Shown: in pieces, positions 3,825 through 23,491 of the stretch
Position numbering within the stretch: position 1 is the stretch's first letter
How the letters are laid out: each line of letters begins with the position of its first letter
DNA from: Ancylostoma caninum
Taxonomy: Eukaryota > Nematoda > Chromadorea > Rhabditida > Ancylostomatidae
Assembly: GCA_037903475.1 (NCBI GenBank)
Contig: JBAJFG010000180.1
Span: 732,091 to 796,090, forward strand
Reading direction: 5' to 3'
DNA length: 64,000 bases
Notes under the pieces: model-generated
Seen by the model: only the letters and a program-made list of their open reading frames with translations
The model's database searches: none
Told to the model about the DNA's origin: nothing
Translations under genes and position numbers: made by a program

Positions 3825-4376
3825 TGTAACGGGATTAAAGTTTGAGGGGAATTATTGTCCGTTATCAGCTAATCCCATTTGAATCCAGAGTGGTTAGACT
3901 TATTGTCCTGTACCGAATTATCCAAAACTCCTGAGCTTATGTATCCGAAATGTCCTAGTGTTTTAGCCCCTTTTCCCTGGACCGAGTGAACAAGACTTTT
4001 CTGGTTAATTTTATCTCAATGGCGTTAATACATATATGGAAGAGAACACGGAGAATTAGCACATTAAAAAAATGAGGCCTAACAGGTGGCCTTATGGAGC
4101 AGGAGGGAGGCCCCTCCTGCCCCCAACGAGATTAATGGGGAAGGAGAAAAGAAAAGAAAAACGAGAAATGAAAGAGAACAAATAAACACTAAAAGGAGTT
4201 AAAAACGAGCCTCATCGAGTGAGGGGCGGGACGAGTGGCGACGGACCGAGACCAGCCCGAGGGGGTTGGACTTTGGGTTTTTATAGCTCTCAGGGGCGGG
4301 GTTTCGCGGCGACGAATGGCGGAGGGTGAGGAGTACTGTGGCGTTGAATATGCCACATTTTCGCGCTTTTCCTACA
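3825..4376 (-). repeat. 3' LTR of the gypsy element
   Basis: 552 bp, about 99% identical by eye to 23492-24044. Because the element reads on the minus strand, this left copy is the 3' LTR. The duplication TACT lies immediately outside at 3821-3824. The neighbouring polypurine tract is weak: the minus strand reads AGCGGTAAGA just before the LTR. Confidence 0.95.
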
Positions 4377-4408
4377 TCTTACCGCTTAGGAAGTTCCGGT
4401 CCCCGGAA

Positions 4409-5014
4409 CTAGAAAAGTGGAGAGGGTTTTATTGTGCAGAGTACTTGGGGGTGATCGTTCTGTCCGCATTTGCGGCATGGATTAGTGTCTCTGCATACGG
4501 ATATGTGGTGGGGTTTTGCGCACTTTGCACATAGGTTGGCTTCGGTAAGAAGAATGGTGGCTTTGACGCAAAACGGGAGGGATGAGGGGCATGTGTGGGT
4601 AGGGTGGCCTCCACAGCAGAGAAGACACGTAAGCTTGAAGGGTCTTCGATCGGGTATGGGAGGTGGTGGTCCTTGTGGGATGTAGGGAGGTCTGGGTTTT
4701 GGCTGGTAGTGAAGTAGCAGTTCAGGTGCGAGGGGAGAGCGAGTGTCACGGTCCGAAGATGGAGATGAAGAACGGGTTATTTGGCTTCCAGGATTACGAT
4801 ACATACGGATTGGCAAAGGATGTGAGGATACAACGATTTGTGCAACAACTTTAGAAGAAGAGGATGAGGAGGAAGAGGAAGAGGATGACGAAGATGAAGA
4901 TGAACTCGACGAAGTCGCTGACGACGATGACGATGTTGAGTCATGGCGACGTTTTCGGCTAAATCGAAGCGGAGGGGAGTTGTTGCTAGTGGAAGTAGTT
5001 ACGATTTGGGGCAT
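4409..5014 (-). CDS. Serine-rich triple zinc-knuckle accessory protein
   Basis: 201 codons on the minus strand, ending 33 bp before the 3' LTR. The N-terminus is basic, followed by a run of about 28 serines (residues 25-55, a degenerate AGC/TCx tract), then a Pro/Arg-rich linker. The C-terminal 75 residues carry cysteine/histidine clusters: CLLC...H....C, CAKCAKPHHISVC and CRKCGQNDHPQVLC, that is three C-x2-C-x3/4-H-x4-C-like knuckles of the kind seen in BEL/Pao nucleocapsids. The likely role is nucleic-acid binding. The ATG follows directly after TTTTAG, a nematode 3' splice site, so the mRNA is probably spliced or trans-spliced at the start codon. This element's Gag shows no zinc knuckle, so this ORF may supply that function; that is inference. 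Confidence 0.75.
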   Translation of the reverse strand: MPQIVTTSTSNNSPPLRFSRKRRHDSTSSSSSATSSSSSSSSSSSSSSSSSSSSKVVAQIVVSSHPLPIRMYRNPGSQITRSSSPSSDRDTRSPLAPELLLHYQPKPRPPYIPQGPPPPIPDRRPFKLTCLLCCGGHPTHTCPSSLPFCVKATILLTEANLCAKCAKPHHISVCRDTNPCRKCGQNDHPQVLCTIKPSPLF

Positions 5015-5458
5015 CTAAAACGACTAGTGTAGTCTATCCTATCGGATTTCATTCTTAGAAGTTGTTGTTTGGACATTCCTTTGACTACAATAAGCGCGCG
5101 CTGGTGCTTAGGTGGTGTCCGTGGCGCGCGTGCGGTCGCGTCGCGGCTCTTTAAAAATGAGTCAATAACGGCGGCAGCGCTGATATTTTGAACGGCGACG
5201 TTGCGAACTGGTATTCTTTTTGTTCTAATTGCATTATTTTTGATCCTTCTTAATAGTTACTACTTCTAGTATGTGTTTAACGTGGTTTTGGTTAGTTTTG
5301 GTCGTTTTGAATGGGGTTTCTAGGTGAAAATACAACTATTTCACAATGTCGCTACTTTACGGGGTTTTATGATGGTATTTTGTTCATTTGCTTATTCTAC
5401 GCGGATATTGATGCCTAGTTTGGTCGAAATGGTCCTATTTCTAATGTTGTCATTTTAG
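5015..5458. promoter_or_regulatory. Candidate divergent promoter
   Basis: 444 bp between the start of the minus-strand zinc-knuckle ORF and the start of the plus-strand EGF gene. It includes a GC-rich stretch (5090-5150, many GCGCGC), then CTCTTTAAAAATGAGTCA (TATA-like plus an AP-1-type TGAGTCA) and an AT-rich part. The head-to-head arrangement suggests bidirectional transcription. No start site can be proven from sequence. Confidence 0.35.
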
Positions 5459-5910
5459 ATGGCTAGTTCTGTTGATCGTAGCTTTTGCTTGGCTCGTTGT
5501 TCGGATCGCGGCGTGTGTTTTGCCAGTGCTGAGGAGCATTTTTGTGTCTGTTATGACGATGATGTGGATCCGTCGGATTGTTCGCCATTGTCTACTAGTA
5601 CTACTATTCCTGATTCTTCGGAGGGTTTCTGGATTAGTTGGCTGTTGCTTTGCTTGGGTGAGTGATTTTATTTTTAACTTACTTACTTTGTCATTTACAT
5701 TGTTACTTAAAGTACTTATTTCATGGGGTTATTAGTGTTTTGTTTCTAGTTGGCACCGCTTTGCTCGGTGCGTTTTGGGCTGTTGGTTGGCTGGTAGTTC
5801 GTTTTCGTCGTCGCTACCGTGTGGTTTTGGTTCGTGAGGGCTCGGAGGGGCGTGTTGCAGCGGGTCGTGTGGTGCCTAATGCGCCACCTCTGGAGATCGC
5901 GGATCCTTAG
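5459..5910 (+). CDS. EGF-like single-pass membrane protein 1 (antisense in the retrotransposon)
   Basis: Two exons, 5459-5657 and 5750-5910, with donor G|GTGAGT, acceptor TTTCTAG|TT and a phase-1 intron; 119 aa. Residues 8-45 have six cysteines spaced C-x3-C-x5-C-x8-C-x-C-x9-C with a CSDRGVC core, which fits a short EGF domain. A Thr/Ser stalk follows. Splicing joins a hydrophobic segment (residues about 60-82, WISWLLLCLVGTALLG then WAVGWLVV), then the stop-transfer RFRRRYR and a cytoplasmic tail of about 30 aa. There is no classical signal peptide, so a type III or signal-anchor topology is likely. The ATG abuts the acceptor CATTTTAG, consistent with spliced-leader or cis splicing. It is antisense to the retroelement and paralogous to the gene at 6181-6631. 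Confidence 0.75.
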
Positions 5911-6180
5911 GCGATCATCTTGTTGTTTTCTTGTATGATACTCTGTATATTTACTCGCATATATTTGTACAGTAGTTAGTTGTTGATATTCCTACTTGTT
6001 ATGTACAGTACGCTTTTTCTAGTTGTTATTTTCCTATTGAAGTTACAATGAATGTTATTTATTTGGATTGCTTACTGACTAATGGACATGGTAGTACGGT
6101 GGATACTGGATAACTTTATTTTTTTTCTTTCGATTATGGGTCGTTATCTCCTTTTTTTTTGTTCTTTTTTTTTTGTTTAG

Positions 6181-6631
6181 ATGGTGAGGTCCGTAGATCG
6201 CAGTTTTTGTCCGTCTCGCTGTTCTGACAGCGGTGTTTGCTTTTTGAGGGACAGAGAGTTTCTCTGCGTTTGCTACGAGGTGGAAGTGGATCCTACGGAC
6301 TGTGCGCCTATTACTACGACGACTATCAGTTCTGGAGTGGATGATGCTGACTGGCATTCTTTGTGGCCAGTTCTGGTGGCGCTAGTGATAGGTCGGTTTT
6401 TTTTTGGTTTTTTTTCAATTACTTGTTTTGCTCTAATTTCATTCTTCTTTCTATCATAGTCAGTCGTCTTTCTTTCATTTTTAAGCGTGTGCCGTGTTTT
6501 GTGGGCTGAATTTCGTTATGTGCTGGTTCGTTAGATGTTATCGTCGTACTCGTGAAACTAACATTGTGGAGTGCGAAGATGGTGGGAAGCGCGAGGAAGT
6601 GCTTGAGGCAATTCCTCTCGACTCAGAGTGA
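6181..6631 (+). CDS. EGF-like single-pass membrane protein 2 (antisense in the retrotransposon)
   Basis: Two exons, 6181-6391 and 6486-6631; 118 aa. The intron sits at the same place and phase (1) as in the upstream paralogue. The acceptor chosen is TTTTTAAG|CG: it keeps the frame and aligns the tail with gene 1, whereas the nearer CATAG would hit a stop soon. The six cysteines have exactly the same spacing as gene 1 (SFC...RC...VC...LCVC...DC), followed by VDPTDC, a Thr-rich stalk, a membrane helix (residues about 62-85), a basic stop (CYRR) and an acidic tail ending in IPLDSE. The ATG follows GTTTAG directly. AATAAA occurs at 6851-6856, about 220 bp after the stop. It lies 270 bp downstream of gene 1, so the two could be co-transcribed. 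Confidence 0.75.
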
Positions 6632-6921
6632 GGCGATAATTAGAAGTGTGAGCTGAGGGGCGGGGAGTGTTAGGGGACAGTTGTTGAGTTTACTTGGTTA
6701 TTCTTGCCTATATCTTTCTTTTAGTGGTCTCATTTATGGGTGCTTACGATATATGAGGGTTATTAAGAGCTTTAGCTATTGTTTTGTGAAGCATATCTCA
6801 AAAGGGTGCTATGAAGTGCAATTTTCTTCCGGTTTCTCATGCATGTTTACAATAAATGTTGAAGTTAACCAGAGTGATACTAACTAATACTTGTACTCTA
6901 GTGAATATTTCGGTTTTTTCT

Positions 6922-9900
6922 CTATTCTTGTTCGTTATTGGTAATCTCAGTTGCAGGGATGTAAGGCTTTAGACGATTGAAGTGGACTGTGCGGAGGCGG
7001 CGACCGTCTTTCACGGTGGCATTCGGTCGTTCGATGTCTACGATTGGGAATGGACCCTCGAATTTAGGTGCGATTTTCGATCCTACATCTTTTCTTATTA
7101 ATACTTGTTGACCTATGTTGAAGTCGGTTGGGGTTACTCTTTTCCTTAGATCGTAGTGATGTTTTTGAGTTTGCTGGGTGGTGGCGATGTTGTGCTCGAC
7201 GTCTTTCCATACATTTTGGAGGGTTGATATTAGTTGTTCTACGTAGTCATCTTCGCTTATGAAGGTTTTTGATGGTAGTTGCAAGGCTAGTCGAAATGCG
7301 TTATTGGGTTCGCGACCGTGTATAACGAAATACGGGGAATATTTTGTAGAAGTGTTATCTGTGGAATTATAGGCGTGGGTCATTAGATGAATGACATCGT
7401 CCCATTGGTCATTTTTCTGATCAACAGCGATGGAAATGAGTTCTTCAATGGTTCTGTTGGCTCGTTCTACCTGACCATTGCTTTCATGATGGTAGGGGGT
7501 GCTCGTTCTATGAGTGACGTTAAGGGTTTTGAGGGTATTGCGGAATATGTCGCTCATGTAATTAGTGCCTTGGTCAGTTACGAGAGTTTCGGGTGGTCCA
7601 AAACGGGATACTACTCGGTTTACAAAAATATCTGCGGTAGTAGTAGCTTTCTGATCTGGGATTGGTTCAGCAATTATAAATTTTGAGAATGCATCTACGA
7701 ATACTATGATGAATCTATTTCCGGTAAGGGTTTGAGGAAGTGGGCCTACTACGTCAGAATGTAGGCGTTGCCAAGGTCGTTTTGGGATTTCGAAGCGATC
7801 GAGGGGTTCGCTAGTGCGATAAGCGCTAGGATTTTTCCTCAGTTGGCATAAAGGGCATGATCTTACGAATTCGGCTATATCTGTTGACATTTTATTCCAA
7901 ATTGCTAATTTGGCAATGGCAGCATGGGTCTTTTGAATGCCTAGATGTGCTGTACCGAAGTTAGATTCGTGAACTTGCTTGATCAGTTCGTGCTTGATCT
8001 TAGAGTTTTCCGGTAAGACTATTTGTGGGTCTTGATATAGTCGTTCTGGTAACTTACACAGAATGCCATTCAGTATGATATAGTTGGCTGTTTCTGGGCT
8101 TGGCTCTTCACTTTCGAGATCATCTTTATATGAGACGATCCAGGGACATTCATCTTGTTCTTTACGGATAGACTCAAGACGAAGGGATGGATGCGGATTA
8201 GTTGAGCTTTCGTCTGCGTTTCTTACAGCGTTGACGTCAGGAGGGTGGCGTGAAAGTGTGTCGCAAACGACGTTAGCTTTTCCAGGTCTGTAGGTTATGA
8301 TGATGTCGAATTCTTGCAAGACCATCTGGTATTTCGCTAATCTTCCTGTTAGGTCTTTTCGGTGGAGAAGGGCTTTTAACGGAGCGTGGTCTGTTATTAC
8401 GGTGCATTTAGCTCCGTCTATATATGGACGAAACTTTTGTACGGCGTACACTAAACCTAGTGCTTCCAGTTCGATAGCTGGATAGCGAGATTCATGGATG
8501 GTAAGGGTTCTACTAGCATATGCAATTACTCTGAGGGTGCCATCTTGTTCTTGTTTAAGCACTCCTGCTACCGCTTTCCCTGAACTGTCGGTTTCGGTAA
8601 TAAATGGGGATCCTAGCTTAGGCGCGACGAGGATTGGGGCAGTTGTCAAAGCTTTCTTTAATAAGTTCATGGCTGTTTCGCATTCTGAAGTCCAGATGAA
8701 TGGTGCGTCTTTTTTGGTCAGTGCCGTTAAGGGTGAAGCAATTGAGGCAAAGTTGTGAACAAATCTACGAAAGAAAGAACACATTCCTAGAAAGGCTTTA
8801 ATGTCCATTGGGCTCTTTGGTGTCGGATATTCGTCGATAGCTTTAGTCTTTTCGGGGTTAGGTTTTATTCCGTCTTTGCTTAGTATGAAGCCGAGAAATT
8901 TGATTTCTTCTCGCGCAAATTCACATTTAGAGGCTTTGAGCTTCATTCCAATCTGCTCAATCTTCGTGAGTACTTCGTCGATATCGACAAGATGTTCTTC
9001 TGGTGTCTCGGAAGTAATTATCAGGTCGTCTATGTATATAAAGACACGGGCTCGCAGATGTTTCTTGAAGTTGTCCATAATTCGTTGGAATGTCGCGGGG
9101 GCTCCCTTTAATCCCATAGGCATTCGGATGTATTCAAAGGCTCCAAGGAAGCATGCAAAGGCTGTTCTTTCACAGTGCGTTTCCTCTAGGGGAATCTGGT
9201 GGAATCCTTGTTGGAAATCAAGGGAAGAATACAGACATTTGTTAGCGCAGAGATCGATTATGTCTTGGATATTTGGTAAAATGGATTGTTGTGGTTTCGT
9301 AATAGCATTGAGTCCTCTAAAATCTATGGTGAATCTCCATGAGTTAGCTTCTCGCTTGCGAACTAAGACTATAGGTGAGCAAAATGGAGAAGTGGACTCG
9401 CGAATTATTCCGTCTTCGATCATTTGCGTGATTTGTCGCTCAATTTCCATCCTTTTCTCGAGAGGGACTCGATAGATTTTTCTTGTTGGGATGGCTGCGT
9501 TTTCTATCAAGTCTATTCGATGTTTGATGGGTCCGTTGTAATGTCCTAGATGACCGTCGGGTCCTACAAAAGCGTTAGAGTGGAGTCTTACTAGGTCTCT
9601 AAGTTGTTCCTTTTGATGATCTGTTATGGCGGATTTGGACAGATCTATTTCATTAGCGACGTCATAGGGAGTCTTTGGTTGCATAGGGAACAGTGGGATT
9701 CTGTCTTCCCACCTAGCTTCAGGAGGTATATACGATGGTGAGTTTTGGACAGCAAATATTCGCTCTTGTGGGAAGCAAATTGGTGTGGCATGAGCGATTT
9801 TCATCTTCTCGTACAGCTGTATGTCAGTGTACGATGGGTTAAGGATAGTTATTACACAAATGCCATTGCCATTTGGTGTGGATAATGATCTACCTACGAT

Positions 9901-10450
9901 ATACATTGGTTCCGAATCTCTTTCGTTATCTTCAATGATAAAGTCAAGGGGTGCGGAAGAAAAGTAACCATCTATATGCGCTGGTACGATGCTGGTCGAT
10001 CTTTTGGGTAGTGTTGTGGTTTCTATGAGACGTACGTCATATGGTAATGGGGAGATAGGCATGATACTGTTCACTTGTATCATGCTATGAGTGTCATCGC
10101 CAATGGTCAATAGATGTGCGTGTAAATCAAAAGTTACTTTCAGACCGGCTTCGTTCAATTTCCGTATGAAGTCGGATCCGAGCAGAACCGGAGCGGGACA
10201 TTGAGGATCGGGAGAAACAAGGAATTTATGATGTAAGAGGTGAGTTCCAATTTGTACTGATAGAGTCACTGTGGCTAACAATTCTACCGTTGTTCCGTTA
10301 GCTGCTTGAGCATTCGTTACGTTAGTATTAACTTGTAAATTTGGTCCGAGGGTTTTGAGGGTGGTTATTCTCATGTAGGATATGGAAGCGCCACTGTCTA
10401 CCAGGGCTGTGGTAGGAGTGTTGTTTAACGTGATTTGTACGTAAGGTAAT
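6922..10450 (-). CDS. pol: Gypsy Pol: protease, reverse transcriptase, RNase H, integrase
   Basis: This is the C-terminal half of the long frame ending at 6922 (numbered from 14100 as residue 1). The retropepsin motif LVDSGAS is near residue 1230. RT spans about 1480-1720, with FTIDFRGLN and the catalytic YIDD (about 1684). RNase H follows (about 1830-1960; TDSS, DHAPLKALL). Integrase has an H-H-C-C zinc domain (about 2043-2090, ending CPLCQL) and a D-D-E core (HSDVVG about 2115, TDQGTNY about 2172, then NGQVERANRTIEE). No chromodomain is seen. All catalytic residues are present and the frame is uninterrupted, so the enzyme set looks functional. It is fused in frame to the glycoprotein upstream, so it must be released by proteolysis or internal processing. 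Confidence 0.95.
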
Positions 10451-13400
10451 GGAGTTCGAGCGGAAGTAATGGACGATATAACGGAGTAGATGCGGGGTAC
10501 GAAGAGTGATTCTTCAGGGGCGTTTGGATAAATTCCTTCTTCTACTAGGGCGTTGACTTCTTGACGGACTTTCCTTGCGCGTTTCTTGGTGGTGAAGTTG
10601 CTTGCTAGTTGGAACATTGCTGAGGCGGCGGTGTTTGAGGCTCTACGAATAAACCATATTTTTACGGCGCATATGCATAAGCCAATAAGTAGCAGTAGGA
10701 CAATAGCGGGAATGGTTATCCAAAGTAATAGGTTGATCAAGGACCATCTGATAGTTTCAACGCCTGCGGAAAGTTTCTCGGTAGTCTTATTGTAGATGGA
10801 AGACAATGAATTTCCTACGGCTGCTCCAGCATTTTTCAGTTGCAAGAGGGTGTTTTCCAAAATTCCTCTTTTGTGCAATTTGTTCTGCAAAGCACTGTAT
10901 TCCTGTTGTAGGTGCTGGATTTGGAATCGCATAGTGGGAGCAGAGTTGAGAGAGAGGTGTTGGTAGAGGGGCGGTGCGTCAAACAGGAATGGTTTAGCGT
11001 TTTCACTGTTTAGCATATTCGGTGGAAGTAACGGTTGAGTCTGCTTTGGGTGTAGGATGGAAATGTATGGACACGATGTTTCTGTAGCAGTTTGAACTAG
11101 ATCCAATGTGCCTGGGATGGAGAACCATAGCTGTTCATCGATTTGTACTGGTAAGAGGTTATAGCATGTTTCATTGACTTTATGGTCTAGATAGACATGC
11201 GTGGCTTCCATTCTTCTGCAACGTGTTACTAGGAGTTCATCATTGGCTAAAGTGGCAGATACGTCGGATTTTCCAAGGAGAGTCCGTGCTGCCCAGGTCG
11301 GATCAGCACGGCTAAGCTCATGAATCTTCTGGTTGTTCAGGTATTGACGAATGCAAATGTTATTGAAGGTGCGACGCATATTCTTTAGGCTTGGGACGCG
11401 GGGAGGCATATCTTCGCGTGCATTTGAGATGGATTTCTTGATCATAACTAGTGATTTCCGAGGAGTTAACATTGCATTCTGGGGGAAGTCTTCGTAATAA
11501 TCGGGAAATCCTTCTGAGGTAAGAACGTAGTTTAAGGGAGAAATTTGCTCTTTCAGTGACTGTTGCTTGGCGCTTTTCATTGTGGTGGAAATGGTAGAAG
11601 TAGCTAAAGTGGTAACACGAGGAATGATGGTCGTTGGTGGGATCGTGCTCGTTGGAGGAGAGGGGGGTGTTGATGTTACGCTTGGTTTAAGAGTAGTTGG
11701 CGCCGAAGTTGGCTTAGAAGTTGTTGTGGTTGGCTGTGAAGTGGTCTTTAGCGATGTTCTAGGTGTCGACTGTACGACTGGCTCTGGTTTTCGCGACTCT
11801 ACTGGCGGAGGAACGTAAGCTGGTACAAGAGTGGTTGCCTTCGTGGTTGTAATTGACGAGGTTAGCGGTGGTATGGGCGTTGTAAATAGAGTCGGGGTGG
11901 TTTTAGTAGTATATACGACTCTCGTTGTGGGGGTAGGCGTTATTGTGGTTGTGGTGGTTGGTCGGAGGGTGGTGATTATTGACGCCTTCGTCGTAGTTGT
12001 AGTAGGAGGTGTTTTCATAGTGGTTGTCGTCTGAATTTTAACCGTGGATAAGGGTACTGCGGTAATCTTCTGGGTTTTAGTTGTAGATGGTGGTGGCACG
12101 CTAGTTGTTGGAAGTGGCGTGGTGGAAAGGTCCAACTTAAGAAGATCTTCATCTTGGAAGAACGGTATTATTCTATTGGGTTGCTTACCAGCTGTAGGAA
12201 TATCTATCTCTAGCACTCCAAATTCCTGCGCTAAGTACTCATCAAAAATATCGGTGGTCCCTTGCTCTAGATCTTGTTTTATTGAGAGTTCGGCATAATT
12301 CAACGGTCTTTTAGAAGGAATGGATCGGAGCCATGACAGTTGTCGGAAGCGGTATTCGCCGTAACGTATGGTTCGCAATGCGCTTATGCGGACGTCTTCA
12401 GACGCATACAATTGGCTTCGTCGGTAGAAATCCTGGTTGGTTACGTTCCATTGCTTAATTTCACGAAGAAGTCTTGGATCTTTTATAGGCAGCGTTTCTA
12501 CATGAGGAAGTTTAGATAGTTCGGTAATGCCGAATAGTCTTTGGATTAGCGGGAGTGTCTGATACGGAACTTGATCATAACGGGACTGTCTGTTTTCGTT
12601 GTCGGTGAGATAGCGAGCGTCACGTTTCCATCGTTTCCCAGGGGTATTATCCATGATGAAATCTTGGACCATGATATTAGGTGATATGTTCGGAAATGAC
12701 ACTAGGTGCTTGGAGGTAGTGAGGTAGCTATTATAGATGTTACACTGTCGCATCAGGTTGGTTCTAAGGAGATGGTCGAAATTGAATTCAAAAGCGAGCT
12801 CCTGTTCTGGTAGGAGGATGTATTTCATGCTAACAAGGGCATCATATTCACCTATTTCTCCAAATCTGCACCAGGGGGTGATCTGGACTGGTTCCCAAAT
12901 GACAGTTTCCTGAGGGGTTTGACAGTTTCCCATCGAGAGTGAGCAATTATCCAGGTTAGCTAGAGTGCTTAGGATCGATTCGCCGTCAAATGATGCTATT
13001 TCTCCTTGTTCGATCGAGTATACGCTACGTAGATATAGATTTGTGCCCCAGAGCGGCAATTTCGCGTTTTCGTCTTCTATTCCGTTGGTGGTTTTTAGGC
13101 CAGGAGAAATCTCAGTCAATGAGTGACCGTGTATAGTTCCGGCGGCTGCGGCGGAACGGCATTCTTCTGGCGAAATTGAAATGCGTTGGCGATCTACCAC
13201 AGTGCGGCGCGTGCGAATGTAAAGAAAGTTATGAACAGATACTTTAATAAGGTCTCTGTAGCATCTGTGGGCTGTCATTCGCAGTGGATTGCTGTTTTCG
13301 GCGTATAACTTTATCGTGGTCTCTATCATAGGTTCTTCCGTGTTTACGCTACATTCGACGAGCTTAGGAAGTGAGAGTACATTGGGAAATGGGCTATTTC

Positions 13401-13490
13401 CACAAATTTGGAATGCTTGAGTCGCTGCGCCTGGTACGCAAAGGGTGGCGACCATGGCGATTATACAGAGAAAATTGACGTTTTGCGCTG
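10451..13490 (-). CDS. Envelope-like glycoprotein domain inside the Gag-Pol frame
   Basis: Between Gag and protease, in the same open frame, lies a region of about 1000 residues built like a viral surface glycoprotein. It has a hydrophobic signal-like segment (residues about 208-226, FLCIIAMVATLCV), a Cys-containing ectodomain with N-x-S/T sites, and a dibasic furin-type site RWKRD near residue 490. A Thr/Pro-rich mucin-like stalk runs from about 663 to 850. A second Cys-containing domain follows, then a helical stretch and one strong membrane helix (about 1118-1146, LLLWITIPAIVLLLLIG) ahead of a basic tail. I cannot assign a fusion-protein class from sequence. Env normally lies downstream of pol; here it interrupts Gag-Pol. 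No stop or frameshift is visible. Confidence 0.75.
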
Positions 13491-14045
13491 CGGTGGGAAA
13501 TCTTGATGGTTGGTTGTATGGCTGGGCACCTTGTGCGCCCGATGCAATCGCTGGTTGTGGATTGTTGGGGTTGAGAGGAGTTTGTTGCGGATATTGCGGA
13601 AACATGAAGTTGAATGGGTTATACCCTTGGTTCTGGAAGCGAGATGGGTTGTAGAAGTTGCGGCTATTCCAGAAGTTTCGGAAGGTATTCCCGAAGAACC
13701 GGCGAGTGTTTGGAAGGTTTCTACGATTGGCGGGATTGAAGCGAGACATGAAATTTGGTCCTCTGTTGAATCTTGGGTTGTATTGCTGTCGTGGAGGAGG
13801 AGGTTTACCGCGTTGGGGTATTCGGGCGACTTGCTTTGGCGGCTGATTTCGTTGTTGTAGGAAGTTGACTTGTTTTTGCAGTTCTTCGACTTTATCGTCC
13901 AACACGAGAGCATTGATGCTTTCTAAGATCTCTCGTTCTTCACGACGTTCTTGTTCGAGGATCCTTTGCTCTTTTTCAGCGTTAGCGACTGCAGTTTCGA
14001 AATCTGGTGGGTCTGGCAACCTTCTTATTGCTTTCCTGATATCTG
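13491..14045 (-). CDS. gag: C-terminal Gag part (basic, no zinc knuckle)
   Basis: First part of the long frame, separated from the rest of Gag by the nested DNA transposon. Residues 30-85 form a charged coiled coil (EKEQRILEQERREEREI). Residues 90-200 are an Arg/Asn/Pro/Phe/Gln-rich basic segment such as RFNRGPNF and NPSRFQNQGYN. It has no cysteines, so no CCHC nucleocapsid knuckle; RNA binding would have to rely on the basic segment. The first 18 codons of the open frame (14046-14100) come from the transposon's terminal repeat, not from Gag. Removing the insertion and one copy of its 3-bp duplication leaves the Gag frame in phase. Confidence 0.8.
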
Positions 14046-14075
14046 TGCCCGTAGTAATCCCCCCCTCAGCCCAGC
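14046..14075 (+). repeat. Left terminal inverted repeat of the DNA transposon
   Basis: 30 bp beginning TGCCCGTAGTAATCC, a perfect inverted match to 20292-20321. Followed by the hairpin CTCGGTTGG...CCAACCGAG (about 14080-14105). Confidence 0.9.
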
Positions 14076-14255
14076 CGAACTCGGTTGGCTGGCATCCCAA
14101 CCGAGCTGGGATCAGGGCAGACCCAGCCGAGCGGCAGCCGATAGCATCGATTGCTCAGGCAGCTGATCTCCGGTGTGGATCACTGCCTGTCCAATCGATG
14201 CATCATGGCACATTGCTGTAAAGGGAACGACTGCTCGCACTTGTGAACACTGTGA

Positions 14256-14320
14256 CCGACTGGATAGTGCAGTGGTGATGTGAAGCAAACAACGGAGGTT
14301 CGAATCCCCTTGAAGGATGC
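14256..14320 (+). ncRNA. tRNA-like sequence with Pol III A and B boxes
   Basis: TAGTGCAGTGG (14263-14273) matches the A-box consensus TRGYNNARNGG, and GGTTCGAATCC (14297-14307) matches the B box. The 23-bp gap is shorter than in a normal tRNA, and acceptor and anticodon stems do not form convincingly, so this is a tRNA relic or SINE-like promoter, not a functional tRNA. A hairpin AGCAGTGA...TCACTGCT follows at 14515-14550. Confidence 0.3.
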
Positions 14321-15157
14321 GCTTTTGCAATGCCGTTTTCCTGCTGCATTTGCTTCGCAAACTCAAACCACTTGGATGTCTCATACTGTGTTGCAAAGGG
14401 GTTGAAGACAATTAGTGATGCATATAGTAAAATGCAATAATTCCCCCCTGCAGGTGTGTCAGAATTTACGGTAGTCACGTTATCTATCCAGCGAAGATCT
14501 TTTATATGTGACAGAGCAGTGAACCCTAAACGGGAGGTCGAATCACTGCTACTTTTATTGGTATTGAATTGATTTCGGCATCCTAATCCAGCACTCTACT
14601 TTCCTTCAAGTCACTTCAGATATAAAAGATTTTCAATTGTTCACTCAATCAGAACACTGATTTTTTTGTTCTTGTACATATTTGCTGCGCTTCCATTTCC
14701 TGAGGCAGGTCGACCGAAGCACATTCATTGTCATCGTACGCTCGCAAAGCTTCGCTTCTGTAGTTCTGCCCTACAACGAATGTCTACGAATCCCAGTCTT
14801 CCATGTTGTTACTGCTACTGAGCCAATGTGATGATGAATATGACGTGTATCGTGTGGAACAAATCCGTTGATTTCATCATAATTTCACTTCATGATAAAT
14901 TCACAACAGTCAACACGCAAGGACATCCGAAAGAGTCAAAACTGCAGTAGCAAACACAAAGTACCAACGACACCAACTTAACGAAAACTTCAACACTAAC
15001 TGTAACTGGGTATGTATGCCAAAAAACAATGATAACTGACTCGTATCCAATATAAATAGATCATTTGTAAGAAGCAAAGATTAAGATAAACATAACCAAA
15101 AAAAAAGAACAGAATGTCTACATGCACCCCTTGTGAGTATAGCTGTCGTACTTCAGA

Positions 15158-16578
15158 TCAGCGGTTGCCATTCGCAGCCTTGGTGCCAGGCTGACCAGCG
15201 CCTCCTTGTTGTTGCTGCCAGTAGCTGAAATTAATTGTCAAACAGCTACACAAACACGATGTACGAACTGAAATGTAGGTAACAATCTTACTTCGCCCAC
15301 TGCTACATAACCTGTGGATTGATGTAGTACTGTGCATAGTAATTGTAATACTGTTGTTGAGCCTGAGCAGCAGCAGCTGCTGCTGCTCCACCTGGTCCAC
15401 CAGTGGCAGGAGGGCCATAACCACTGCTACCAGTAGCCAGTCCTCCGTAACCATAGGCGCCTTGCCCATAATTACTGTAACCTTGCTGACGTTTCTCCGA
15501 CTGAAACAATACGTGAATTAAAAGCATGAATACGAGCACTCCTATCTAACTTACATCACTCGTCTTTCCCCATGAACAACGGATAGTATTGCAAGATCAC
15601 CACCGTTCATCCTTAGAATCGCTCGACAAGCACACTCCTTTGAGTCGAATTTCACGAAAGCGTAGCCTTGCACTTTGAAAATTCGCACTTCAAGGATGCG
15701 GCCAAACTGTCCAAACGCCTCTCGATCGTCTTCTTCTGAAAAAAACTACTGACGTACGCCACATCTAGAGTTCTGTTGGAAGCAACTATCATAACGGGAT
15801 TAAATTACGTTCGTACCTCATGTTTTGGGTACAACCACAACACAAAACCGTATCCCTTCGACTTCAGTGTAGTCATATCGCGAATAACTTTCGCATCACT
15901 GGAACAAATATAATAGTAGAGAACAATGAAGTTTTGTAAAGAAGTAGACCAGTAATGGAGTGCATTTCGGTTTGAACGTAGAAGTCCCATGGACAATTTA
16001 TACCGGATGCGTACGATTGACGTGCGCCAGACGCGCATAGACGAAGATTTCGCAAACATGTGACTCTAGGCTGCGTCCGGGTCCTATTCTTCATCCTATA
16101 GAAGCACGCGCGTCGGTTGCACGCATCCGGTATAAGTTGCACCTTAGGGTTTACTGCAGTCTAGAAATGGGAAGAGGGAAGAGAACATACCTGACGTCTC
16201 CAAATGGTGCAAACGCTTCCTTGAGCGCTTTATTATCAATTTCAGGTGAGAGATCACCAACAAACACATGGAAATGTTCTGAAAAATATTTTTGCAATAC
16301 ATTCTATTTGTCTCAAAATGATCTTCATGTCAAGAAAATACCTATTGCTAGCATGCAAATAATTTATGAACGGAACTTACTGCTAGTATCCACTTTTAGT
16401 TGTTGCTGTCCTGGCTCAACTGCCCAATTGACTTTCATTTCCTACAGAGCATTGTGAAACCACTGCTTTAAATGACAAGCAATCTGTTTGAGAAGAAGTA
16501 ATATGCATCTTATCAAGCAGCTTATGCAGCCATATTGTGGTCCGAAAACTCAACAAACGCATAGGGATCATTGGTGCC
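15158..16578 (-). pseudogene. Broken TIA-1/ROX-8-type RNA-binding protein gene copy
   Basis: Exons on the minus strand, in order: 16578 to about 16490 (RRM1, GTNDPYAFVEF), 16441-16381 (EMKVNWAVEPGQQQ), 16278-16191 (RRM2 start, [15 protein letters not shown]), 15898-15817 (SDAKVIRDM...KGYGFV), 15735-15555 (RRM3, AFGQFGRILEVRIF), 15500-15292 (Gln/Tyr/Gly/Ala-rich C-terminus) and 15224-15158 (WQQQQGG to the stop). Splice signals are mostly preserved. These are hallmarks of the TIA-1/TIAR family, which binds U-rich RNA and acts in splicing and stress granules. Defects: several stops in the RRM1 exon, a stop at 15303-15305 where Gln is expected, a 1-nt deletion late in RRM3, the end of RRM2 missing, and no first RRM1 exon found. 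Lies wholly within the DNA transposon. Confidence 0.85.
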
Positions 16579-17294
16579 CTGAAATGAGACTGGATAAGAT
16601 TCCGGGAAGTGCACAGATTGCTACACACTTGGAAGATCCAGGGTTTCCCCTCTCTAGGTGAACTCTCAAAGACGTGATGGCTAACTTAACTCATGCGCGT
16701 CGCAAAAACTACAAAAAGAAGAATGGAAAAAGAACGGAGAAATAATAAAGAAAATCATAATGAAAGCGTATGTGGTAAATGGATACTCTTCGAGGCTGCA
16801 GTTTGCGACGAGGTCGAAACTACAAGTACGTACGCTGGTTACCCATGCAGTCGGCGCACCTGCGAAGGGGACTCATTGTGGAAAGCCGGCAAATGACATG
16901 AGCAATCTAATGAAAGTGAAAACAGCAAAAGTGCGCAGAGCGCTATGCCGAAAACAAAAGTTAGGGAAGACCAAGTTACTTACCACCAGACCCGCTCGTT
17001 AGAAAAAGAGAAAAATAAAAGAAAAAAGAAACTCGCTTCTCGCAAGAAGAGCACGCTATAACGGGCGGCAAGGTGAAGGTCCCCCCCCTGGCTCGGGTAA
17101 AAGTGAAGGTTGCGTGAGCAGGATACTCAGGGTATTCCACTTATGCGGCAATGACAAGGAAAACCATTTGGCACGAATGTATTCAAAAACGGATTACTAC
17201 GAAAATGTATAAGGACTAGGCGAACGGGGAAACAAAAAACACCAGCAAATTTGCTAAAGATCACGGAAAGCGTAAGCATGGACAGACCACAGAC

Positions 17295-17429
17295 CTGCTC
17301 TGTTAACTTGTCAGGATTCTCTGTGACCTTCTTGACACCGGCGACAATGTGTTCGGGGTATGTTTGTCGTTCGCTTCCATTGAAAAGTGTTCGACGCATA
17401 CTAGCAAATTGAACTCCTGTGTGCAAAAT
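17295..17429 (-). pseudogene. Isolated exportin-7-like exon
   Basis: A 135-nt open exon (45 codons) with a perfect acceptor (CATTTCAG) and donor (CAG|GTCTGT) on the minus strand. The peptide contains SMRRTLFNGSER and EHIVAGVKKVTENPDKLTEQ, which resembles the exportin-7/RanBP16 segment I remember as SER...HLV.GVK.ILENP; this is recognition from memory, not a search. No flanking exportin exons were found, so it is a fragment carried in the DNA transposon. It could instead belong to another karyopherin. Confidence 0.5.
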
Positions 17430-18173
17430 CTGAAATGATCCGATGTAGACGTAGAGCGGAGATCAAGAATAACTATTAGGATTTGTACCTTTTCAAAAGC
17501 AAAAGCCAAAAGAACCAAGCACGTATTGAGGCGTGCGCTGTTTTGTGGGAAATATAACATGGAGGAGTATTATAGTATGAGGGAATAATAGTAATAGTAT
17601 GGAATAGAAAGTGATAGTGATAGTAACTACCCTTCTGCTCCTGTCCTCCCCTCCCATCACTCCTCAAACAATGTATGCTCAGCAACTATGTAGCTTTACT
17701 TTACCGTAAGGAAGTGGAAAATGCGTAATACGCTAAGGAGTAGTTATCGACAGGAAGGAACAGGTGCATACTTAAAAGTGTAAGCATTATCGTCACGAAA
17801 AAAAAAAAAAACAAGAAGAAAGCATTGGGATAAAAAGTTGAGGGAAAAACAGAAAAAAAAAACAAAAAAAGTCGAACCAAACAAGAAGAATAAACTGACT
17901 ACAGCAGGAGGATTACTCGTAGTAGTATACGGCGATGAAGTATGAGCTTGCGATGAGCACCCGTTGCTGGATGAGAATGTCGTACAACGGGGATGGCGGC
18001 GTCCTTTTGTTTCTAGCCAGTAGTTCAGATGATCCTGCCAGTTGTGCGCGATCAGCGCGGAGGTGAGCACTCAATGAAGTTGAAGGCAGGTACCTGAAGA
18101 ACCCAATCATTAGCAACAAAAGCAACAAGTGCATCTGAGATCAACTCAATTTTCAGGGGGAACTGAACAGAGG

Positions 18174-18404
18174 CAGTGAGCGTCGATGGCAGTGGCCTTT
18201 CCGCGGCCTCGAGAAGGACGCCGTCCGCCAGGATTGATGTCGTCTGCCGCCGTTCCCGGTTTTGAGGATTTTCGATTAAATCGGGAAGAAAATCGCTTAG
18301 AAATAGCATTCTGGCGGCAGAAGACATCGATTCCGGCGCGCATGGAGCGGTTGCGCTGCGTCCTTCGCAAGCCGGGGAAAGGCCACAGCCATCGACGCTC
18401 ACTG
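18174..18404. mobile_element. 231-bp foldback MITE
   Basis: Terminal inverted repeats CAGTGAGCGTCGATGGC (18174-18190) and its complement (18388-18404), followed by imperfect arms (GTGGCCTTTCC...AAGGACGC on both sides). It has no coding capacity. No target duplication is clear. It splits an open minus-strand segment (about 18065-18180) that may have been an exon. Confidence 0.65.
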
Positions 18405-18832
18405 TACCTAAATTTGTGAAAAGTCCATAAAATCAATTTCATCACGTCGAATGCGTAACATATTCAAGATCAGCGCGTTCCACTATCCCTGTACGCAAGC
18501 CTTCGGGGGTCGTTTATTTTTCAAGTTCGGTGTGGATAGCATCAGACCACTGAGCTATGACAGCACCGATTTCCAGGCAGATAACCGACCTTTTTGCTGC
18601 TGTGGTCCATTTTTTTTGCTTAAGGCCTTCCGAAAAAAAACTTCCAAATAAAATATTAAACCTGACAAAACCTTTAGGACTAAAATCGAACGAAATAGTC
18701 AATCACCTTGACTTTCATATTATTTCACGACAAAACACAACGTCGCGAATGAAAAACCACATCCTCGGGGTAAGTAAAAGCAATTGTTAGCAACACTGCA
18801 CACCCTTTCCATAACACTACAAATGAACCCAC

Positions 18833-19691
18833 CTGCTTTTTCGTGAACCCAAGCGACTTTAGATTCTTAGAAATGAAATTTTGCTTCAATTCAGGGTGCG
18901 CTTCGTCGGGTTCTTTGCACGGCTGAGCTTCTCCTAAAACAATGGAGATGAAATTAACGGAGTACCTGAGTAGACATGCTGGCCTGTTATGACAGACTTA
19001 GATATCTGCTAGTTTTCATATTGGCACACCGACTGAGATCAGATCAGTTACTATATCACTTAATGCTAGCACCCGAAGACAGCCACCAACAGTGAGTAAA
19101 GTTTCATACTGATTATGGTAAAACGCAGTATTTTGTCTCATAGGTGGAAAGTCAATAAACAAGTGGACGGCACAGAAAAAAAAAACAGGAATTTTCACTC
19201 AGGCATGATAGTCGCCCTCATTTCTGGGCAGAATACATAATTCCAGCAATCTCAAACGTTAGTGATTTCGTTACCGTCAAAGAATGTTTCCATGGTGTAC
19301 AGGAATAAAACAAGGAGGAGAAATGAAAGTATTCGGTAATTTTTGTGAATCAAGCGTCTGAGCATTTTTTGACTTTGGTAGTTAAAGCCAAAACTTCTAA
19401 CGAATGATATTTATCACTAGATATAGGAGCGAAATACATAGGATATGGATGGATGAATTGAAGACGATACGCTCGCAACTCACAAACGAATTAAATCAAG
19501 TCACAACATTGCTGAATGTCAACCAAACCGAGCATAGCAAAAGCTTCAGGACTCGTAACTCACAAAAATGTGCCTAGAACCCGCGTGAAATCGAGAACAC
19601 AACAAAAGACCGCTCACCAGGTGTGGGAGGCTTGATAGCTGGACAAGTGACCGCTGCCGGCTCAACTTCTGGATGTGCACGTTGATCAACT
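18833..19691 (-). pseudogene. Two exons of an unrecognised captured gene
   Basis: Exons 19691-19617 and 18933-18833 (minus) have good splice sites and join in phase: the first ends in IKPPTP and the second begins GEAQPCKEPDEAHPELK and ends SLGFTKKQ. A third possible piece lies at about 18180-18065 (IELISDALVAFVANDW), interrupted upstream by the foldback MITE. I do not recognise the protein. It is in the same orientation as the TIA-like and exportin-like fragments. Confidence 0.4.
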
Positions 19692-20028
19692 CTAGAACAT
19701 CACATGTTCAAATGGCAGAACAAATTAGAGGAATGGAAACCGATATCATATTTCGGGTGATGTCAGAACGCTGCAAACATCCTGCGCAGCAAAAAATGTG
19801 GTAGTGAACGTCGAGAATAACAAACCCTGAGCAAAACTATTTTGGAGAATCAAGACAATGGAACAGGTTCAAGAAAATCCAAGCACCAAGTTCAAAGTCG
19901 GCAAATACAGCAGCCCGATGAATTGCATCATCGGCCTAAAATTCTCTTTGCGCGGAAAACTCGTCCAAACGGAATTTTCACGCCTAAATGTTGTGAGCCC
20001 ACACTACGCAATTTTACACGGGCTGACC

Positions 20029-20110
20029 GAAATAGTGGGTCAGCCGAGGAGAGTCACGTAAGTTGCTCACGAGCAACTTACGCGCGCCTACTCGGCTGAC
20101 CCACTATTTC
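20029..20110. repeat. 82-bp double palindrome near the transposon end
   Basis: Outer perfect 20-bp arms at 20029-20048 (GAAATAGTGGGTCAGCCGAG) and 20091-20110. Inner perfect 12-bp arms CGTAAGTTGCTC (20057-20068) and GAGCAACTTACG (20071-20082) around AC. An alternative stem GGCTGACC/GGTCAGCC begins at 20021. Confidence 0.85.
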
Positions 20111-20291
20111 TTCTTTTCTTTGGCAGCCGAGCCGGAAGCCGAGCTGGGCTGGGCCTCAGCTAAGCTGGGATGGGAAATAGGCATCCGATCACGCTCGGCT
20201 TACCCCTCGGCTGCCTATCCTACAACATGGGAAGGCAGCTGAGCTGCTTTTGGACGAGTTTTTTGGCAGTCGACTGGGTCATCCCAGCTCA

Positions 20292-20321
20292 GCTGGGCTG
20301 AGGGGGGGATTACTACGGGCA
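20292..20321 (-). repeat. Right terminal inverted repeat of the DNA transposon
   Basis: Perfect 30-bp inverted copy of 14046-14075; the target duplication CTG follows at 20322-20324. Confidence 0.9.
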
Positions 20322-20324
20322 CTG

Positions 20325-21162
20325 GTCGTAGTCCTTTAATGAAGAAGTCGATTGCGAGCTTGTTAGGTACGGTTTTATCTTCTCCTTGGAACGCTATCTT
20401 TGTTTTAGCGAGGATCTTCTTGGCAAATTCGCCTACTGAGTCCTGGCGCATATTATGGAGTTCATCGCGGATGTTACTAAGCATTGCCTGGTTCTTAAAC
20501 TTCTTAGCGAGAGCGGTTACTGTCGTTTCCCAATTTGATTTTTCGTCGTCGGTGAGGCTTTGATACTTGAGTTTCGCTCCGCCGGTGAGGTACAACGGGA
20601 GTAAGCTTCTAGCATGATGGTGTGGGATGTTTAGACTTTCCACTAAGTCCTTAAATTCGTCCAGGAATTCCTCAAAGGTCTTATCCGTATCTCCCGAGAA
20701 TTTCTCTACTCTATTTCCCAGTAGCTTGCATGAAGCATATAAGGTTGGTACATCCGGGTTGAACATTGCGGATCTCCTAGGGGTCTCTTCCAATTTAGCA
20801 AGGGTTTCTTTTGATCTGTTTACACTTGCTCTTAAGTTTTCTATGAGCGTTCTCACAGGAGACTTACTTTCCGGGGTCTCAATCTTGCTAGGGGGTGGAG
20901 ACTCCGTCTTGGCAGTTGTTGGTTTCCTTAGGCTTACTCTACTAGTGCGCGGAGTTTCAGCAGGCTCCAGACTTCTGTTCAGATATTTTTCTCTGGCTTC
21001 GTCGTATCGAAGTCTGCGTTGTGTTCTAGAGGAGGGTTCTCTGCTTTCTGGTGGAGTTCGAGACAGTTTGGTAGGGCTAAGTTTGAAGAATAAAGGAAAT
21101 ATTTTTTTTGATTTTAGAGCGACTGCGCTATCCGGAAGATGGTGGATTGGAAGATTTGAAGC
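20325..21162 (-). CDS. gag: Gag N-terminal and capsid-like region
   Basis: Open on the minus strand from just after a stop at 21163-21165 down to the DNA transposon. The first about 100 codons are Ser/Pro/Arg-rich. Then comes a capsid-like helical region with the retrotransposon Gag signature FSGDTDKTFEEFLDEF, and later TVTALAKKFKN and DSVGEFAKKI. Its last residues before the insertion are FFIKGLRP. There is no ATG in the first 130 codons: the first in-frame Met is near 20766. The true start is therefore probably in an upstream exon (the minus strand reads CAATCTAAG just before the open frame) or the N-terminal part is untranslated. The frame continues for 36 codons into the transposon terminal repeat before a stop. 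Confidence 0.75.
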
Positions 21163-21889
21163 TTAGATTGCCTAATCAGGAGCGTTTCTACGGTTACAAG
21201 GATAAGTCTTTACTTTATTGTGTTGTCGTAAGTTTTGTTAACTTGTTTTCGTTAAGTTTATTATTATTTTTGTATTAGTTTTGTTTTTGTTAGCAATAAA
21301 TGAGATGAGATGAGTATACGGATTGAGAATGAGGAGGAATAAACACAGAATAGAATAAAAAAAATAAAAAGCAAAATAAAATTTTGGAACTTACGTTGGT
21401 GTATGCTTGCTCTTATTGAGCTTTGTTACTCAATGTTTCTATGTTAGATCAAAATTTGTTATATGCTTTTGAAACTCAAGTGCTAATACTACACTAAGTT
21501 TTATAAAAGAGAAAAGACTCACTTGGTTGTAGAGTATTGTTGACTTGGCAAGAATATCGCTTTGGCAGTTGAGGCTAGAGCGAAGTGGTGGGGCAGCTGT
21601 AAGAGCTGTCTGGTTATATAGTAGTCGAAGGGGCGGAGCAACTACAGTAGGCTTATGATCTGTGGTTCTAGTCTCTAGCTCAGTCTGTCTTTTGGTCCCT
21701 CTGGTTTCTAGTTCCCTTACAGTAGGTTGGTCTCCGGACAGATCCCTCTTCCGACCGAGGGTCGGCGGTGATTTATTCTACGCGGCGGCCTCGGGGGATC
21801 ATTAGCGTAAACTCTCTCTTGGCCGTTGGTCTGCATTTTACACATGGCCGCATAACAAATTGCTGTGCGTGGCCGGAGTTTTTGGTCGC

Positions 21890-22030
21890 TGGTCGAAAGT
21901 TGTGCGGACGCTCTAAATAACCAATGGGTCCGCGGCGGTCGGTCGTCGACCACGCATTTTTTTTTCCGCGCGCGTGCGTTGTTATAAATAATTGGCGTCG
22001 GCGCGCGAGCCATGTTGCAAAGATCAACGC
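21890..22030. promoter_or_regulatory. Candidate internal promoter
   Basis: A TATA-like palindrome TTATAAATAA (about 21982-21991) inside a GC-rich, CGCG-containing stretch, between the 273-aa ORF and Gag. It could serve as a Gag promoter on the minus strand, but the sequence alone does not show it is used. Confidence 0.25.
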
Positions 22031-22158
22031 GAGCAACTACGGTACTCCTACTTCATAGGAGTGAACTTGAAAAACGCTATGTACCTTACTGGAGCAGAAA
22101 ATGACAACAAAAAAAGGAAAAAAGGTATACTCACTGAGTAAAAAAAAATGAAGTCGAT

Positions 22159-22980
22159 CTAAGCTTGGCTGGTGACGTTGCGTGGAGAGGGTGAGCTGGG
22201 ATAGAAAGGGGCATCATCTTCTTCGTCATCCGTCGACCATGGACTGAAGGCTTCTGGGGTCTTGGGTTCCCAGGTGCTGTCGTTATTGCCATGACGCAGT
22301 GAGACAGGTGAGAACGAGGCATTTTCGTCCTCATCGGAGCTCCATACTCCGTCTTGGTAGGGGTCGGTGGAGTCTGAGTAGCTGGAGCTCGCCTCATCGT
22401 CTGTCGGTGTTATCGGACGATTTGGGATATACTGCGGCTCGGCGTTAACCAGCTCCCATGGGTTTAGGCCCCGCACGGGTTCTTTCTCCAGTACAAACCA
22501 TATTTGTTCCAAGACGTAGAAGGTGTCGACGTCTCCAAAATCGAGCTGGACAAGAGGGGCGTGCGGATTGTCCAAACCCGTTTTCATCCTTGAAGCCAGT
22601 GTATAGAAGATGGTGTCATCGTTGGTAGGGAGCATGGAGGTTGAATCTAGGTCTGTCCGAACTATGGCAGACCGATGATCCATTACTGGTTGTCCATCTT
22701 CCCCATCGATGATGAATTTCGCCGCAAATAGGGTATCGTAGCAGTATGCCAAGAGTCTATGGGAGGGGATTTGGTGGACGGGTTTCCTGTCGAGTATCTC
22801 CAGGCTTGTTGTCAGTCTCATGACATGGTGGCTGTCCATCCACTCATTGATGTAGATAGGCATGGAATCAAGGTGATGTCGTGCGTTCGGAATGTGGCTC
22901 GTATTACGGTATGCGAGGTGGGCTTCTGCAGACACGGCATGATGTAATTTGGCGATCAGGGCGCTTGCGTCTGGGCTCAT
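22159..22980 (-). CDS. 273-aa accessory ORF between 5' LTR and Gag
   Basis: A complete frame from ATG (22980) to stop on the minus strand, intact in an otherwise young element. Residues 1-185 look globular (His-, Asp- and aromatic-containing, such as PIYINEWMDSHHVMRL and DVDTFYVLEQIWFVLE). Residues 190-273 are disordered and strongly acidic/serine-rich (DDEASSSYSDSTD, TDDEEDDAPFYPSSPSP). It has no cysteine cluster, signal peptide or membrane helix. I recognise no family. By position it could be an extra N-terminal Gag (matrix-like) exon or a separate regulatory protein with an acidic tail. Confidence 0.6.
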   Translation of the reverse strand: MSPDASALIAKLHHAVSAEAHLAYRNTSHIPNARHHLDSMPIYINEWMDSHHVMRLTTSLEILDRKPVHQIPSHRLLAYCYDTLFAAKFIIDGEDGQPVMDHRSAIVRTDLDSTSMLPTNDDTIFYTLASRMKTGLDNPHAPLVQLDFGDVDTFYVLEQIWFVLEKEPVRGLNPWELVNAEPQYIPNRPITPTDDEASSSYSDSTDPYQDGVWSSDEDENASFSPVSLRHGNNDSTWEPKTPEAFSPWSTDDEEDDAPFYPSSPSPRNVTSQA

Positions 22981-23481
22981 TGTTTTTTTTTTTGGGATGC
23001 TTGAAATTGATCTGGAATAGTCAGTTCGAAATTCGGAATTATTTCATACTTTCACTTATACTGTACGGAGAATTGTGAAGCGGGGCTGTACGATAGCTAC
23101 TAGTTATAAGAGCAGGAGAGGATGATTAGTGTTATTGTTACTGTTACTGCGCGTTTTCTGAAGCGATTTCTGGTGTTAAATATTACTCTATGTAATGCGA
23201 GGGAATCGCTTGCCTGGCCAGGGCTTTTCCTACGCTTAGAAAGGTTACCCGTTGGAGCTATGCTCCTGTCACTTTCATTAGGAGTTATTATAGCCTCGCA
23301 TTTAGAGAGCGTAGTCGTGACTTGCGCTTATATGAAGAGAAAATGCTAGTTTTATATAGTTAATAATTGGAGGAGAAATTGAGAGAAGTTGTGTGAAGGA
23401 GGAGAAATGGGAAGGAGTTTTGTTTAAATAATAGAGAGAAAGAGTTCTTTTGCCGGGATTCTATAGATAGAATCCTGGTCC

Positions 23482-23491
23482 GGAACCTCCA
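23482..23491 (-). promoter_or_regulatory. Primer binding site (tRNA-Gln-like)
   Basis: Directly next to the 5' LTR the minus strand reads TGGAGGTTCC, complementary to the 3' end of tRNA-Gln (GGAACCTCCA) over 10 nt. The following GGACCAGGATTC does not continue the match, although CAGGATTC resembles the complement of a tRNA-Gln anticodon arm. Confidence 0.55.

Follow-up and report, generated by a model that had tools for sequence, protein, structure and literature searches.

Recurrent antisense genes for predicted membrane proteins with EGF-like heads in a hookworm family of Ty3/gypsy retrotransposons

Two antisense genes between integrase and the 3' LTR

A stretch of 64,000 nucleotides from Ancylostoma caninum (contig JBAJFG010000180.1, positions 732,091 to 796,090; the window) contains a Ty3/gypsy long terminal repeat (LTR) retrotransposon on its minus strand. 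Two adjacent genes, A and B, are located on the plus strand between the integrase and the 3' LTR of this element, i.e., antisense to it. The pair was initially noticed from the letters of the window (the original prediction), and our spliced models and map of open reading frames (ORFs) reproduced its coordinates exactly. Neither gene overlaps the sense ORFs at 4409-5014 and 6922-14154. The pair consists of the following features, identified by gene modeling and motif scanning, with support from the recurrence (both first exons), selection (exon 1 of gene A), and tail (exon 2 of gene A) comparisons below:

5459..5657, plus strand: gene A exon 1, encoding the EGF-like head, the stalk, and the start of the helix
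5750..5910, plus strand: gene A exon 2, encoding the helix, the basic flank, and a tail ending in VPNAPPLEIADP
5911..6180, plus strand: intercistronic stretch, with AATGAA at 6047 and T-rich sequence up to an acceptor at 6180
6181..6391, plus strand: gene B exon 1, encoding the EGF-like head, the stalk, and the start of the helix
6486..6631, plus strand: gene B exon 2, encoding the helix, the basic flank, and a tail without PxAP
6851..6856, plus strand: AATAAA, which may serve gene B as a poly(A) signal

The products (119 aa for gene A and 118 aa for gene B) share the architecture originally described, i.e., a six-cysteine head, a Thr-rich stalk, a single hydrophobic helix (the best mean hydropathy over 19 residues is 2.06 in A and 2.68 in B), a basic flanking segment, and a short tail. 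The cysteine spacing, C-x3-C-x5-C-x8-C-x-C-x9-C, is common to A, B, and five relatives among hookworm proteins, and the alignment of A with B scores 189, compared with a maximum of 56 in 1000 shuffles. Each gene has one intron, in phase 1 in both cases, and these introns are AT-rich (GC content of 0.26 and 0.28 versus 0.47 to 0.60 in the exons). The gene B intron ends at a less usual acceptor, TTTTTAAG, the only one of the four AGs tried that keeps the frame to the stop at 6631. As had also been claimed, each ATG directly follows acceptor-like sequence (TTTTAG in A and TTTGTTTAG in B); TTTNAG-ATG is by itself not rare, with eight occurrences in the window over both strands. In nematode spliced leader (SL) operons, about 100 nt separate the upstream poly(A) site from the downstream acceptor, and the downstream message receives the SL2 leader. 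The stretch between genes A and B, with its AATGAA, T-rich sequence, and acceptor, can be compared with this layout.

Recurrence and protein-level selection

A search of the assembly (348 Mb; 638 contigs) with exon 1 of gene A gave 25 matches, of which 2 were genes A and B of the window and the other 23 fell into 20 loci (denoted by L numbers), each fetched as a 10-kb stretch. As these loci were found via the EGF-like exon, they measure recurrence and not the fraction of element copies carrying the gene. The exon is antisense to the integrase and/or to the zinc-knuckle ORF that adjoins the 3' LTR, with the order kept, at 18 of the 20 loci, which bears out the recurrence that the original prediction had proposed to check. 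It lies between the two genes and on the strand opposite both at 12 loci (L009, L011, L013, L017-L022, and L024-L026), is antisense to the integrase with no zinc-knuckle match at L010, L015, and L016, and, at L014, L023, and L028, where the integrase is missing, runs antisense to the zinc-knuckle ORF. The zinc-knuckle ORF was matched beside the exon at 15 of the 20 loci. L012 is a rearranged locus, and L027 (C439:54000-63999) has a lone fragment of an EGF-type exon, around which no element gene was matched.

Four copies (that of the window and those at L009, L011, and L012) have flanks without similarity to one another over 1.5 kb and thus represent independent insertions; near-identical copies are present among L018-L021 and L022-L026, and the claim of independence covers the four copies named. 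Capture of the segment in one copy only was rejected because the genome search returned recurrent loci with unrelated flanks, which largely refutes a single capture in the window copy. Two cysteine-patterned ORFs were detected at L009, L010, and L011 and one at 13 loci (L013, L015, L016, L018-L026, and L028), and the pattern scan found no such ORF at L012, L014, and L017. The A-B pair is, as seen, limited to the subfamily of the window copy. Splice modeling by lineage gave no intron in L016, ambiguous results in L013 and L022, and a weak donor in L015.

The original prediction had also proposed that the two copies are under selection at the protein level, and comparison of A with B agrees with this. 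Over the first 53 codons, the proportions of synonymous (pS) and nonsynonymous (pN) differences are 0.78 and 0.25 (pN/pS, 0.33; bootstrap range, 0.19 to 0.52), and third positions hold 34 of the 59 differences (P = 1.1e-4). The ratio weakens to 0.60 (pN, 0.40; pS, 0.66) when all 115 aligned codons are counted, and the clear signal is therefore placed in the head. Seven lineages (A, B, L013, L015, L016, L018, and L022) keep the frame over 41 to 42 head codons, and head pN/pS is 0.23 to 0.57 in all 21 pairs, with synonymous sites near saturation and a third-position excess that is not significant in every pair. All seven have acceptor-like sequence directly before the ATG, L018 and L022 having one additional G. 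Coding on the minus strand of the block was rejected: when all six frames of the alignment between A and B were compared, the combination of no stops and pN below pS occurred in the plus frame alone.

These patterns bear on the idea of a regulatory plus-strand RNA that acts on the sense genome or on small RNAs, with the protein being of little weight. A regulatory role has been suggested for the antisense genes of plant Retand elements in the available portion of their description (PMC11963269). However, selection on the plus frame (pN/pS of 0.23 to 0.57) and the excess of third-position differences in the A-B comparison (P = 1.1e-4) are at odds with such a role, and we regard it as quite improbable.

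More recent divergence was assessed by comparing the window with L010 or L011. The exons of A and B are 1.0 to 4.3% different and the introns 1.1 to 7.4%, with the introns of gene A no more diverged than its exons; the intercistronic stretch, the 3' flank, and the divergent region upstream of gene A are 5.5 to 6.6%, 7.0 to 7.5%, and about 14% different, respectively. Each comparison yielded six synonymous and three nonsynonymous changes (pN/pS of 0.16, from small counts). Differences between the L009 block and the window are confined to the gene B intron and one intercistronic gap. Decay is also present: gene B of L010 has lost its frame in exon 1, and a stop interrupts exon 2 of gene A in L011. 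Between L018 and L022, the heads are 38% different and the reverse transcriptase (RT) segments are 4% different, which may reflect fast change or gene exchange between elements. Across six lineages, EGF-like head and RT distances were only weakly, and not significantly, correlated (r = 0.30; P = 0.18).

The host element and hookworm relatives

The element that carries genes A and B in the window has the following features:

3825..24044, minus strand: whole Ty3/gypsy element (20.2 kb), delimited by the LTR pair, TG...CA ends, and a flanking 4-bp target site duplication, TACT
3825..4376, minus strand: 3' LTR (LTR alignment)
4409..5014, minus strand: zinc-knuckle ORF, 201 aa, Ser-rich (ORF list and pattern scan)
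5015..5458, no strand: divergent region from the zinc-knuckle ORF to gene A, CpG-rich at 5015-5240 (CpG observed/expected, 1.79)
6922..14154, minus strand: open frame with the gag end, a fusion-glycoprotein-like region, protease, RT, RNase H, and integrase (Pfam)
14045..20322, no strand: nested insertion of ~6.3 kb inside gag, with inverted 43-bp ends that are 90.7% alike
20215..21162, minus strand: 5' part of gag (Retrotrans_gag, 33.4 bits; cut-off, 24.1)
22159..22980, minus strand: 5' ORF of 273 aa, counted from its first ATG, with relatives in A. duodenale and A. ceylanicum
23492..24044, minus strand: 5' LTR (LTR alignment)

The LTRs (3825-4376 and 23492-24044) are 99.1% identical (four mismatches and one gap in 552 columns), and the LTR pair with its target site duplication, gag, and the order protease-RT-RNase H-integrase place the element in Ty3/gypsy (Metaviridae). 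The fusion-glycoprotein-like region lies in frame between gag and protease and matches PF24664 at 26.6 bits, just below the cut-off of 27; gag, glycoprotein, protease, and RT occur in identical order in protein records P0006 (A. duodenale), P0007, and P0008. In the window, the ~6.3-kb insertion at 14045-20322 interrupts gag. The zinc-knuckle ORF is separate from gag and contains three CCHC-like knuckles and a Ser run; TTTTAG immediately precedes its ATG on the minus strand. As half of a stacked query, it had no homologue among the best 7988 candidates, a list that its serine runs may have crowded. A Pfam search with the 5' ORF (22159-22980) gave no match, and one relative of this ORF is similar mainly in the C-terminal part. 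Elsewhere in the window, positions 1-726 include 172-bp direct repeats with a large inverted repeat, and 28157-28925 is a tandem-like repeat block.

A protein search identified five relatives of A and B, confined to A. caninum and A. ceylanicum. The modeled A protein of L010 exactly matches the A. caninum record ANCCAN_14534 (P0002), which makes the dog hookworm the very likely source of the assembly. Another public model, ANCCAN_12853 (P0001), joins the first part of A to B via the B acceptor and is probably a prediction artifact of two neighboring genes. In A. ceylanicum, Y032_0035g2990 is of the A type (99/119 identical) and g2991 is of the B type (94/118), and g2988, close to both by gene number, matches the element 5' ORF (155/219). 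The order g2988, g2990, g2991, taken from the gene numbers, departs from that expected for a single collinear copy with the window layout, and tandem copies or rearrangement are possible. No A. duodenale EGF-like protein appeared in the protein search, although the polyprotein and 5' ORF searches (best 7960 and 7988 candidates scored, respectively) did list relatives from that species. Searches of viral contigs, prokaryote genome contigs, and plasmids found no relative, and the open-licence literature searched did not mention the gene identifiers of the relatives.

The A. ceylanicum pair is annotated, and no A. ceylanicum polyprotein was present among the best 7960 candidates of a length-limited search; together with the lone exon of L027, these observations would fit a single capture of a host EGF gene, or an element gene that is retained today solely for the benefit of the worm. 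However, four copies have unrelated flanks, the same antisense order is found at 18 of the 20 loci, and no more than four gene numbers separate the A. ceylanicum pair from the 5' ORF relative, and we regard either possibility as very improbable. The unrelated flanks (window, L009, L011, and L012), the diverged lineages, and the position of the A. ceylanicum pair near an element gene together uphold the original view that this was not a one-time capture.

Head, tail, and possible functions

The original prediction described the heads as EGF type. The six cysteines, in EGF order and spacing, are present in A, B, and the five relatives. Pfam EGF models remained below their cut-offs (EGF_Teneurin, 12.1 of 24.3 bits; EGF, 8.1 of 21.5; EGF_2, 11.5 of 22.1), patterns written after PROSITE EGF_1 and EGF_2 gave no match, and the last cysteine loop lacks the Gly usual in EGF. 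An AlphaFold2 model of P0002, for which three relatives were included, is of low confidence (mean pLDDT, 62), with strands at residues 19-23 and 26-30, the place of the EGF hairpin, and a helix at 53-94 that is confident in its middle part. A Foldseek search with this model gave no row at E < 0.001 (the best row is an EGF domain; E = 5.3), and a sequence search of the PDB gave three rows, which were not significant (best E = 0.11) and not EGF. A defensin-like fold was rejected (13.9 bits; cut-off, 25.1). The name EGF, used here for a putative EGF-like head, is based on the cysteine pattern. The cysteine order and the single helix behind a short stalk, an arrangement known from tethered ligands, would suit a membrane-tethered growth-factor mimic that stimulates a worm receptor and thereby expands the population of germ cells accessible to the element. 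The absence of the usual Gly from the last loop, the Pfam and PROSITE results, and the fast divergence of the head speak against such a ligand, and we consider it improbable.

PTAP and PSAP are late-domain motifs that bind TSG101 and recruit the endosomal sorting complex required for transport I (ESCRT-I), as in HIV-1 Gag p6. A PxAP motif is present near the C-terminus at 13 of the 19 loci examined, i.e., PTAP in L018-L021 and PSAP in L022 and L024-L026 (8 of the 19 loci; two lineages), PNAP in L009-L011 and in gene A of the window, and PAAP in L013 and L017. Among the last 15 residues of 1321 ORF tails from the window, P[TS]AP did not occur and PxAP occurred four times, the tail frame of gene A included. 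The glycoprotein tail carries PNAP in the window, L009, L010, L013, and P0006, PKAP in L017, and PTAP in P0008 and P0009; this comparison leaves out L011 and L024, where the tail is unreadable. These observations tentatively favor, at somewhat less than an even chance, a hookworm Ty3/gypsy family with one or two antisense genes for proteins that have an EGF-like head under selection, are predicted to span the membrane, and carry a PxAP tail likely to recruit ESCRT-I.

Several points weigh against this interpretation of the tail. The window form is PNAP, which is not canonical, L015 has CSAP, and B-type tails lack PxAP. No motif occurs at the homologous place in L012, L014, L016, L023, and L028, the pattern match of L012 being in unrelated sequence. 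The glycoprotein tail is without PxAP in L015, L018-L023, L026, P0007, and P0010, and the gag parts scanned contain no late motif; PPxY is found in the glycoprotein region, and such other late signals could serve instead. A PxAP-like string could also mark a protease site. Finally, the motif was spotted post hoc and is a lead, not a test.

Under the ESCRT interpretation, transcription of genes A and B would start in the CpG-rich part (5015-5240) of the divergent region that adjoins the zinc-knuckle ORF, a region that may also supply an outron, or else in the 3' LTR, the messages would be trans-spliced to the acceptors at the two ATGs, and the operon-like spacing suggests that A and B may form an operon. 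Acidic residues before the helix and basic residues after it suggest a protein inserted head-out without a signal peptide, with its tail inside. The tail would then draw TSG101/ESCRT-I, leading to release of particles or vesicles, and the fast-changing head might contact the next cell or the glycoprotein of the element itself. Taken as a whole, the notion of a self-promoted, trans-spliced, EGF-headed adaptor that bears PTAP/PSAP in its tail and drives both the ESCRT-dependent release of element particles and their transfer between cells (in the germline) is unlikely, with a modest chance of being correct. Alternatively, the head may be the working part, acting beside the glycoprotein as an accessory of entry or adhesion that aids attachment to the next cell, the tail motif being a mere sorting signal. 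An extracellular-type six-cysteine head on a stalk, a fusion-glycoprotein-like region in the same element, and the contrast between heads (38% different) and RT (4% different) in L018 and L022, as expected for a contact surface, are consistent with this role, for which the HIV-1 antisense protein (ASP), with its proposed role at the viral surface, provides a precedent (PMC12568219). It leaves unexplained why two lineages carry PTAP or PSAP at corresponding positions, and we consider it somewhat unlikely. With respect to the original prediction, our analysis suggests three refinements, namely, that the pair was observed in this subfamily only, that the term EGF reflects the cysteine pattern, and that the tail motif may point to a role in budding, which had not been proposed.

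The ESCRT interpretation can be compared with known systems. Viral P(T/S)AP late domains similarly place a short PTAP or PSAP in a cytoplasmic context for TSG101 recruitment; these domains usually reside in Gag or matrix proteins, whereas the hookworm motif is on an antisense-coded predicted membrane protein and is degenerate (PNAP or PAAP) in some lineages. HBZ of HTLV-type viruses is likewise antisense, near the retroviral 3' end, and made from spliced RNA, but it is a nuclear regulator and not a membrane protein. Plant Retand elements, also of Ty3/gypsy, have conserved antisense ORFs between pol and the 3' LTR, which encode mostly TRP28 and other DNA-linked domains (PMC11963269); the hookworm genes differ in encoding a small cysteine-rich predicted membrane protein, in having an intron, and in their animal host. 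A Pfam search found no TRP28 match in exon 1 of A, in B, or in P0001-P0005. HIV-1 ASP is also a membrane-associated product of a retroviral antisense gene, but it overlaps env and is described as without known homologues (PMC12568219), whereas the hookworm genes lie beyond the integrase, do not overlap a large sense gene, and encode an EGF-like head. LTR elements of bdelloid rotifers, likewise of animals, have a captured ORF3 and extra small cysteine-bearing transmembrane ORFs, for which the excerpts describe neither opposite orientation nor an EGF-type protein (PMC5408684). Cer1 of Caenorhabditis elegans, another nematode Ty3/gypsy element, makes spliced messages and messages trans-spliced to SL1, and its accessory protein, CERV, is sense-coded and nuclear; an antisense or EGF-type gene is not mentioned in the excerpts (PMC3315495, PMC10309623). 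Atlas virus, a hookworm endogenous element from A. ceylanicum, has a functional-looking envelope, and its available description contains no antisense or EGF term (PMC9094657). The open-licence literature searched on LTR elements likewise contained no report of an EGF-type gene.

Antisense retroelement genes are known in plants and some vertebrate retroviruses, and antisense accessory genes are known in principle; the protein type, the tail, and the animal gypsy home are new as far as our searches reach. Some hookworm gene records (e.g., ANCCAN_14534) represent element genes and not worm genes. If the ESCRT interpretation is true, a budding factor would be coded on the antisense strand of a retroelement, in elements with a fusion glycoprotein, and the combination of an adhesion-type head with a budding-type tail in one conserved, antisense-coded membrane protein would bear on the cell-to-cell infectivity of endogenous elements.
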